Source: Anaerolineae bacterium (lineage in GTDB: Bacteria; Chloroflexota; Anaerolineae; Aggregatilineales; JAFGMM01). Taken from it: a stretch of 64,000 bases of DNA. Shown here piece by piece: positions 41,949 through 45,165 of the stretch. The notes under the pieces are model-generated. The model was not told where the DNA came from. It saw only the letters and a list, made by a program, of their open reading frames with translations, and did no database searches. The stretch covers positions 496,001 through 560,000 of the forward strand of contig JAOSJO010000012.1 of assembly GCA_027494055.1 (NCBI GenBank), in the 5' to 3' direction. The position numbers were made by a program, and so were the translations under genes. Each line of letters begins with the position of its first letter. Position 1 is the first letter of the stretch.

Positions 41949-42383
41949 GTAAAAACTCCGATCTAGACGCCTGACACAAACTGCCAACAATTGGTAGCTA
42001 TATTAAGCGAGCAAATCATTGTACCGCACAGCCCTTATGGCTAATTGCATATCTATCTCTGTGGATAGGGCGATTGCATGAAACGCAGATGAAACTGCGA
42101 ATAACGCCAATAACGCGAATTTCTGGCCTGCATAGCCGAAGTCTCTCAAGGAAATGCGCCTACTTCAAAGATTAATATCCGCGTTATTGGCGATTATATC
42201 CCTGGGTCTCCGGGAATTCGCGTGCTGAACCAAGGTTCGACGCCCGATTTGGGGGCGGCATCGGATTTGCACCGTAGGGACACGGCACTGCCGTGTCCCT
42301 ACACCTCACACCCACGCGAATTCCCAAAGAACCCATTTCTTATCTCGATGTATCAAATCGACCGGGTTTTTCATGCAATCGCC
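41949..42383. mobile_element. Nested inverted-repeat island, MITE-like
   Basis: Perfect 19-bp inverted repeats ATAGGGCGATTGCATGAAA at 42065-42083 and 42369-42387 bound a 323-bp unit. An identical 8-bp direct repeat, CTCTGTGG, lies immediately outside both ends (a target duplication). Inside are two further inverted repeats: 42100-42120 with 42176-42197, and 42203-42224 with 42313-42335 (imperfect). A 14-bp hairpin at 42274-42302 lies inside the last. No transposase gene is present. The right end supplies the stop codon of the next gene. Confidence 0.65.
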
Positions 42384-42656
42384 CTATCTCTGTGGACGCC
42401 TGAAGAGAAAGTCTGTAGGATAGGAATTACCCCAATATGCAACTAACTCCCAACCTTCATCTCCAAAAACGGAGAGGCAGTGCACTAGAGCATGACCACC
42501 ATCTGGTGCTGATGCAACTGCTAATTCAAGTTTCTGGTTCAATTCCTGCTCGGTATCAGGATCATCTGATTTTGCATAACCTGCTCCTCCCGATCCCAAG
42601 TTGAAATAATGAATAAAATCCCATTTAACTATTTCTGATTGTGTGCTGAGACCCAC
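42384..42656 (-). CDS. Small DUF4177-like protein, end altered by repeat element
   Basis: This protein of about 90 residues contains KWDFIHYF and FGDEGWELVAYWGN, the wording of small DUF4177-like proteins. The stop codon TAG at 42384-42386 lies within the right terminal repeat of the island, and the last residues come from the target duplication, so the C-terminus was probably changed by the insertion. The start is a weak GTG at 42656 that overlaps the upstream gene by 28 bases. Function unknown; a second member lies at 43721. Confidence 0.55.
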   Translation of the reverse strand: MGLSTQSEIVKWDFIHYFNLGSGGAGYAKSDDPDTEQELNQKLELAVASAPDGGHALVHCLSVFGDEGWELVAYWGNSYPTDFLFRRPQR

Positions 42657-43720: not shown

Positions 43721-44032
43721 TTATTCTTCTTTTAGGCGCTTAAAGTAAAGAAAATGCGCAACATCGCTCTCCATATATGTTACAGGACCAATACCCACAA
43801 GTTCCCACCCGTTCTCGCCCAATTGAGCTATGAGTTGGTCTAGCTCATCGGAGCTTTCAATAAGCGTCCACTCGCCACCGTATCTGATCATGGTGGAATA
43901 GCGTTGCCACCCCGCTGCCTCATTGCGTTCCGTAATGGGTCCGGGGAGGTACGCAGAGTTCGCCCGGTCATCCTTCCACCTAAATGCTTTGTTGATAATA
44001 GGACCGACGGCGCAATATTCCCATTTTTGCAT
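43721..44032 (-). CDS. DUF4177-like small protein
   Basis: This protein of about 103 residues starts MQKWEYCAVGP and contains LGENGWELVGIGPVTYM, the core of DUF4177-type proteins. I chose ATG at 44032 with GAGGGAAG upstream because relatives start at MQKWEY; a GTG at 44050 would overlap the glycosyltransferase stop (GTGA). Lower G+C than neighbours. Function unknown. Confidence 0.6.
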   Translation of the reverse strand: MQKWEYCAVGPIINKAFRWKDDRANSAYLPGPITERNEAAGWQRYSTMIRYGGEWTLIESSDELDQLIAQLGENGWELVGIGPVTYMESDVAHFLYFKRLKEE

Positions 44033-44046
44033 CTCTTCCCTCTTAC

Positions 44047-45165
44047 TCACAAGCTGGCGAAGGCGGCCCCTTCGGGATTGTTTTTCGCCATACCCACCTC
44101 CTCCACGTACTCCCGCATCTCCCGCCGGAACACCGCGACATCGAACCGGCCTGCATTCTCCACCGCGCGCGCCGGGTGGAACGCCCCCGCGTCAAAGCGC
44201 TCCAGCGCCGCCATCAGGCTCTCGACCGTCGGCGCGTCGAAGAACGCACCCGTCTCGCCCTCGATCACCGTGTCGAGCGCGCCGCCGCCGTGCAGCGCGA
44301 TCACCGGGCGGCCGGCGGCCTGCGCCTGCACCGGCGTGATGGCGAAGTCCTCCAGGCCCGGCAGGATGAAGGCCTTCGCGCGCGCGAACAGGTCTGGCAG
44401 GTCGGCGTCGGGCACGCGCCCCAGGAATTGTACCGTAGGCCCGGCCATCGCCTCCAATCGCGCCCGGTCGCGCCCGGAGCCGGCCACGCGCAGCGGCAGC
44501 CCCAAGCGCGTGCACGCCTGCACCGCGAGATCGACGCGCTTGTACGGCACGAGCCGCCCCAGGCTGAGGTAATAGTCCCCCACTTCCGGCGCGGGCGCAA
44601 ACATCCGCGTGCGCACCGGCGGATAAATGATAACCGACTCGCGCCCGTAGTGCCGGGCGATGCGCCGCTGCACCTCCGACGAGATGGCGATGAAGTGGTC
44701 CACGCGGTCGGCGGCGGCGCGGTCCCAGCGCTTGAGCCGGTCGGCCTGTGGCCTTATGACTACGCGAAGTAACGCGGGGATGCGCTCGCCCTGCACATAC
44801 GTGTCGTAGTCCCACACGTAGCGCGTCGGCGTCAGGCAGTAACACACGTGGGGCGCGTCGCCAGTGCGCACGCCGTGACAGAACCCGCTCTTGTTGCTGA
44901 TGACCAGATCGTAGCCGGAGAGGTCCACCCTGCCCCACGCCAGCGGGTAGAGCGGCAGGAATGGCTGGTGCCGCCGGTGGATGAGCGGCAGCCGGTCGAG
45001 CCAGGTGGTGCGGATATCCCACGCGCGGTAGGCGTCGGGCATGGCGTCGCGCCAGTACATCGACGTGTACACCGGCGCGCCGGGGAAGAGGCCGACCAGT
45101 TCCTCAAGCACGTCCTCCGCGCCGCCGCGCTGGTTGAGCCAGTCATGGACGAGGGCGATCTTCAC
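44047..45165 (-). CDS. Glycosyltransferase family 4 (GT-B fold)
   Basis: This 372-residue enzyme transfers a sugar during exopolysaccharide assembly. It starts KIALVHDWLNQRGGAEDVLEE. The C-terminal half shows the nucleotide-binding part: YYLSLGRLVPYKRVDLAV, RVAGSGRDRARLE, and the E-rich site GLEDFAITPVQAQAAGRPVIA. GTG at 45165 with AGGAAGG upstream is favoured. It is the first gene of the minus-strand exopolysaccharide cluster. Confidence 0.9.
   Translation of the reverse strand: MKIALVHDWLNQRGGAEDVLEELVGLFPGAPVYTSMYWRDAMPDAYRAWDIRTTWLDRLPLIHRRHQPFLPLYPLAWGRVDLSGYDLVISNKSGFCHGVRTGDAPHVCYCLTPTRYVWDYDTYVQGERIPALLRVVIRPQADRLKRWDRAAADRVDHFIAISSEVQRRIARHYGRESVIIYPPVRTRMFAPAPEVGDYYLSLGRLVPYKRVDLAVQACTRLGLPLRVAGSGRDRARLEAMAGPTVQFLGRVPDADLPDLFARAKAFILPGLEDFAITPVQAQAAGRPVIALHGGGALDTVIEGETGAFFDAPTVESLMAALERFDAGAFHPARAVENAGRFDVAVFRREMREYVEEVGMAKNNPEGAAFASL

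Follow-up and report, generated by a model that had tools for sequence, protein, structure and literature searches.

A 321-bp transposase-less element with ISAs1-type ends and nested repeat families in an Anaerolineae genome

A short region packed with inverted repeats lies between minus-strand ORFs in the genome of an Anaerolineae bacterium, in a polysaccharide-type setting with Wzz-like matches just under the Pfam cut-off. The question is whether this region is a mobile element, and if so, which transposase would have moved it. We analyzed it within a stretch of 64,000 nucleotides (the window) and in the whole genome to which the window belongs (G000), a 5.7-Mb draft of 28 contigs that is 86% complete. 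The features of the region are as follows.

42066-42386, unstranded: ISAs1-type MITE of 321 bp without transposase (323 bp, 42065-42387, if drawn with ATAGGG ends)
42066-42083, plus strand: left terminal inverted repeat TAGGGCGATTGCATGAAA, 16/18 identical to the right end of the full element L100 and 15/18 to both ends of the full element L103
42369-42386, minus strand: right terminal inverted repeat, exactly complementary to the left one
42056-42065, unstranded: left target duplication TCTCTGTGGA (8-bp reading CTCTGTGG, 42057-42064)
42387-42396, unstranded: right target duplication TCTCTGTGGA (8-bp reading, 42388-42395)
42096-42192, unstranded: block A, two CGCGAATAACGC-type repeats in inverted orientation, with left arm at 42096-42120 and degenerate right arm at 42177-42192
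42204-42334, unstranded: block B, belonging to a second MITE family, with GGYTCTYYRGGAATTCGCGKG at its ends; target duplication not found at this copy
42274-42302, unstranded: block C, 29-bp GTAG-type REP palindrome GTAGGGACACGGCACTGCCGTGTCCCTAC, inside block B
42384-42656, minus strand: 90-aa ORF with its TAG stop from the right end of the element; the joined empty site gives this stop as well; no family match

The original prediction described exactly mirrored 19-bp termini, an 8-bp duplication and a unit of 323 bp. The termini are as it said: ATAGGGCGATTGCATGAAA at 42065-42083 has an exact inverted copy at 42369-42387, and the match is 20 nt with one extra flanking G/C pair included. The 8-bp sequence is directly repeated on both flanks, and in full the direct repeat spans 13 bp (CTATCTCTGTGGA, at 42053-42065 and 42384-42396), because it overlaps with the terminal bases of the element. 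We preferred the 321-bp borders, in which the ends read YAGGG as in related ISAs1 elements; this drawing gives perfect 18-bp ends and a 10-bp target duplication. The predicted 8 bp and 323 bp are real as an alternative drawing with ATAGGG ends.

The window was scanned for perfect inverted repeats of at least 16 bp, at most 2.5 kb apart and with a flanking duplication of at least 7 bp, and the only ones found were registers of this pair. In 200 order-1 Markov simulations there were 43 such inverted repeats, none with a duplication, and a chance origin of the structure was rejected (inverted repeat with duplication in 0/200 simulations). The strand of the element as DNA folds at -90.2 kcal/mol compared with a shuffle mean of -46.0 kcal/mol (z -10.4). 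No transposase gene is present in the element, as had been predicted, and the longest stop-to-stop frame is 91 codons. It means that the element has the terminal inverted repeats (18-20 bp, perfect), the target duplication, the short length and the lack of transposase of a MITE.

The search for a transposase with matching ends led to the ISAs1 family. The PF13808 profile had a match in 5/8 genomes examined and in 45/154 genomes of the order. Among 33 ISAs1-gene loci, which include two repeats of others, nine showed inverted ends of this kind together with an exact 9-10 bp duplication. The element L103 is 1213 bp, with perfect CAGGGCGAACGCATGAAA ends, a 10-bp duplication CGGGATCCTC and a 372-aa ORF. 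L100 is 1211 bp, with ends CAGGGCAATCGCATCAAA and CAGGGCGATTGCATCAAA and a 9-bp duplication; its ORF extends beyond the right end, so this element may be damaged. L105 has TAGGGCAAWCGCATATCA ends and a 9-bp duplication. The ORFs of L103, L100 and L105 scored 410, 396 and 396 bits against NF033564 (ISAs1 family transposase; cut-off 70), and also matched PF13808 and PF01609. Clear ends without an exact duplication were found at L085, L086 (= L124), L099, L107, L111 and other loci, some of which are at contig ends.

The best agreement with the ends in the window was 16/18, at one end of L100, and no ISAs1 element with identical ends was found among the loci examined. So the family of the matching transposase can be named from full elements of the same order, by both NCBIfam and Pfam matches, with ends that are near but not identical. 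The duplication range of the ISAs1 family is 8-10 bp, and the 321-bp element fits the duplication size (9-10 bp at the measured ISAs1 loci) and the CAGGG/TAGGG-type ends. Beyond the 18-bp ends it had no evident similarity by eye to an ISAs1 element. Since no transposase lies inside it, the element does not count as an ISAs1 insertion sequence and just has the ends of that family. The only PF13808 match in G000 (L088) is the remnant of a broken gene with other ends (GAGGGCTGATTCG...), and it was rejected as the source of the 321-bp element on this difference of ends.

Short elements of this type are common in relatives. Examination of 73 loci gave 29 short elements (at most 700 bp) that combine such ends with a duplication, in eight genomes, one of them a Bacteroidota (Spirosoma), a count from which end pairs without duplication had been left out beforehand; 16 of the 29 are from CALMZT and are largely near copies, not independent. 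The duplication was exact in 23/29, being 8 bp in four, 9 bp in ten and 10 bp in nine elements, and had 1-2 mismatches in 6/29. One element of G367 (L036 1502-2112, C50) is 611 bp, with both ends 18/18 identical to those in the window and an 8-bp duplication. An element of CALMZT is 164 bp and one of Spirosoma spitsbergense (Bacteroidota) is 163 bp, both with a 9-bp duplication. A pair of such ends was also present on contig C258 of the sister genus (G001).

Two side observations were made on these relatives. The ISAs1-ended unit L036 holds a 146-aa passenger ORF, for which Pfam listed no match to E = 10 and NCBIfam none to E = 0.001. In Spirosoma spitsbergense (G399) the 163-bp elements form an ISAs1-type MITE family (L053, L068, L082) with 9-10 bp duplications, and one end each of L053 and L068 is 18/18 identical to that of the window element.

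How often the ends occur elsewhere depended on the genome. Within G000, the 19-bp end (at most 3 mismatches) was found at this element and as one lone end with 3 mismatches, CAGGGCGATTGCATGAGA (G000:C23:59197; L003/L135), for which a good partner end was not found. In 396 genomes of the class, 14 (G000 included) carried it with at most 2 mismatches, at 20 places, compared with 2 for the reversed pattern. The exact 19-mer was present in five genome_contigs stretches: three from the CALMZT MAG (uncultured Chloroflexi), one from Anaerolinea sp. CH2 and one from Spirosoma spitsbergense. The expectation that the termini recur is therefore answered in two ways, hardly within G000 and clearly in other genomes. 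The relaxed end TAGGGCRATTGCATSAAA (at most 2 mismatches) occurred 7 to 112 times per genome in seven genomes chosen because matches were already present, and the control gave 2 in total. Ends of this type in CALMZT are often no more than about 100 bases away from the end of a contig.

With at most 3 mismatches there were 41 end-like places in G000 compared with 11 in the reversed control, so most of them are taken as chance. Nine of these loci were examined, and two proved to be a pair with duplication: the window element and a second ISAs1-type MITE (L143; C25:345507-345679) of 173 bp, whose ends are CAGGGCAATCGCGTCTWA and whose duplication of 10 bp is GGCGCATCCC. The 321-bp element itself is single copy in G000 and lacks the multi-copy trait of MITEs. 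Because G000 is 86% complete, extra copies or the transposase may be missed.

Plasmids and viruses were searched as well. By blastn against plasmids, the GTAG part alone of the element was matched, in 2 records. The 18-mer TAGGGCGATTGCATGAAA was found in no viral_contigs stretch, and the degenerate end YAGGGCRATYGCATSAAA was found in 24 stretches, of which none had a partner end with duplication. The ends in viral_contigs often read GCGATCGC, the cyanobacterial HIP1 word, and they were therefore taken as unrelated.

Taking together the observed ends, the duplication, the absence of a transposase, the matching full ISAs1 elements in the order and the many similar short elements, we consider it highly probable that the 321-bp unit is a non-autonomous ISAs1-family element (MITE) moved in trans by an ISAs1-type transposase. 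A DDE transposase of the ISAs1 type, provided in trans, would act on both 18-bp ends, and the unit would have been inserted at 42056-42065 by a staggered cut, which would produce the 10-bp (or 8-bp) duplication. We infer that the unit was moved by an ISAs1 transposase, that it already had its 321-bp form when it moved and did not lose an internal transposase later, and that G000 either has since lost the mobilizing transposase or never had it. The element probably has no cell function. It had been proposed as a new MITE, and the lack of transposase, the perfect ends and the target duplication bear out the MITE part; the type is already known, and the copy in the window is a new member, not a new kind.

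Other origins should be weighed against this one. An internal deletion may have removed the transposase from a full ISAs1 insertion sequence at this site, with other repeats later filling the gap, in which case the unit never moved as such. Two observations are in line with such decay: no second copy of the unit was found in 154 genomes of the order (E <= 0.001), where the matches cover single blocks or one end, and the order has many ISAs1 genes that are broken. However, perfect terminal inverted repeats with a duplication argue for a recent insertion, no trace of a transposase was seen in a unit whose longest stop-to-stop frame is 91 codons, and relatives commonly carry short elements that have these ends and lack a transposase, so we regard decay as unlikely.

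Much less probable still is that the nest is kept by the host, with its hairpins (DNA or RNA) serving as terminator or mRNA stabiliser among the minus-strand polysaccharide genes. The strong folding (z -10.4) and the position between minus-strand ORFs with Wzz-like neighbours would suit such a role, but the folding stems from inverted repeats that transposition explains. Between 41950 and 42700 there were 0 terminator-like and 0 promoter-like sites, and Rfam gave just a lone chance miRNA match far under the cut-off, which was rejected as a family for the element. We give practically no credence to chance or an assembly artefact. Although G000 is a draft of 28 contigs, none of the 200 simulations reproduced the structure, and the same architecture is present in independent genomes, including the isolate Spirosoma spitsbergense DSM 19989.

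The interior of this ISAs1-type MITE is itself composed of repeats. Nested inverted repeats had been noticed and attributed, with a perhaps, to hits by other palindromic elements; the nesting is real, blocks A and B are each members of a separate family of dispersed repeats, and block C is a palindrome of the GTAG type. The block A family occurs at 33 places in G000 and at 109 in the sister genus G001 with at most 3 mismatches, compared with 1 each in the control. Its arms in G001 are frequently inverted pairs of about 100-140 bp. One ISAs1-type MITE of G001 (L205, 238 bp, 10-bp duplication AGTAAACCGC) encloses an inverted block A pair, as read by eye; the right arm of this pair is also among the places found for the block A family.

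As a separate observation, the inverted CGCGAATAACGC pair also flanks a gene of 129-130 aa, at 1501-1950 of L219 (G000:C22:450471-450920) and at 1073-1525 of L226 (G001:C143). This gene is GxxExxY-like. It lies between apparent heterodisulfide-reductase-type genes, seemingly at the same place in both genera. The short block A elements could have a coding relative in this gene unit with its CGCGAATAACGC pair.

The second MITE family, of which block B is a copy, has GGYTCTTYGGGAATTCGCG ends, and its copies elsewhere show duplications of 8-10 bp. Copies in G001 (L169, L172, L178, L180) have exact 9-10 bp direct repeats at their ends, and the copy L048 in G182 has a clean 8-bp direct repeat. No direct repeat was found at the ends of the copy in the window, nor at L153, L168 and L184. 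The pair L136 was, by eye, not of this family. It was also seen that the family in G001 and G182 has GGYTCTTYGGGAATTCGCGGGG-type ends, and that G001 copies enclose GTAG-type palindromes.

In G000 the arms of block B matched nowhere else except for a 15-bp match at E = 2.6, and the other matches to block B fall on its GTAG part or middle. The block B end was found in no viral_contigs stretch. The arms of block B have no second copy in G000, yet the sister genus holds the family in abundance, as though block B had been brought inside an ISAs1-type element. The pattern GTAGGGRCN{4,30}GYCCCTAC of block C occurs at 80 places in G000 and at none with the reversed control. Of the 29 short elements with a duplication, 21 also contain GTAGGGRC or its complement, in 5/8 genomes. 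It is conceivable, though doubtful, that ISAs1-type MITEs of this order carry other small repeats (GTAG REPs and the second MITE family) to new sites or genomes via a foreign transposase. The blocks may have been acquired either ahead of the latest move of the element or following it.

The effect of the insertion on the neighbouring gene was also considered. The right end was said to provide the stop codon of a DUF4177-like gene. The TAG of the 90-aa ORF does come from the element, but when the empty site was joined in silico the ORF stopped at the same residue with TAG and the protein was unchanged, because the target already had CTA ahead of the duplicated bases. The DUF4177 assignment was not upheld, with no match to the 90-aa ORF listed to E = 10 in Pfam or to E = 0.001 in NCBIfam. 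Against plasmids, tblastn with this ORF gave no match. Another minus-strand ORF at 43721-44050 (109 aa) had a weak DUF4177 match (E = 0.0066, below cut-off), and by eye the motif GWELV is common to it and the 90-aa ORF.

These results give the name of a transposase family to the widespread TAGGGCRATTGCATSAAA ends of Chloroflexota and one Bacteroidota. The name helps the annotation of repeat-rich draft genomes, where such ends are often near contig ends. REP-type palindromes are recurrent inside ISAs1-type miniature elements (5/8 genomes), which would be a testable route for REP spread between genomes. This recurrent nesting is the aspect that could grow, and it may merit a closer look.

For block B, a comparison with ISL3 can be made from sequence. 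The ends of ISL3 elements typically start GGCTCTT. The block B family is possibly ISL3-type, as a lead only, and it has the 8-bp duplication (L048) and the GGCTCTTTGGG end in common with such elements. One ISL3 member with an 8-bp duplication is tabulated in the available part of PMC4133298. Block C is comparable to the GTAG-type REPs in the available part of PMC3733652, in which Chloroflexi are among the hosts of the GTAG repeat superfamily: both start with GTAG and are short, dispersed palindromes. Unlike a plain GTAG-type REP, block C sits within a second MITE within an ISAs1-type MITE.

No ISAs1-derived MITE is described in the available parts of PMC3542288, PMC3733652, PMC5756416, PMC4133298, PMC3281130 and PMC9208149, and the open-licence literature gave no title on MITEs of Chloroflexi or Anaerolineae. 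The element shares with ISAs1 insertion sequences (NF033564, PF13808 and PF01609) the YAGGGCRATYGCATSAAA-type repeats, the 9-10 bp duplication and the bacterial order. Those are about 1.2 kb with the commoner CAGGG ends, whereas the element in the window is 321 bp with TAGGG and no transposase. The Tn3-derived TIMEs are likewise short and non-autonomous, have the ends of a known family and are usually single copy per genome, according to the available part of PMC4133298. Because single-copy TIMEs are recorded there, we take the multi-copy trait of MITEs as usual and not strict. TIMEs have Tn3 ends of 38 bp and 5-6 bp duplications in that same text, in contrast to the ISAs1 ends and the 8-10 bp duplication of the element in the window.
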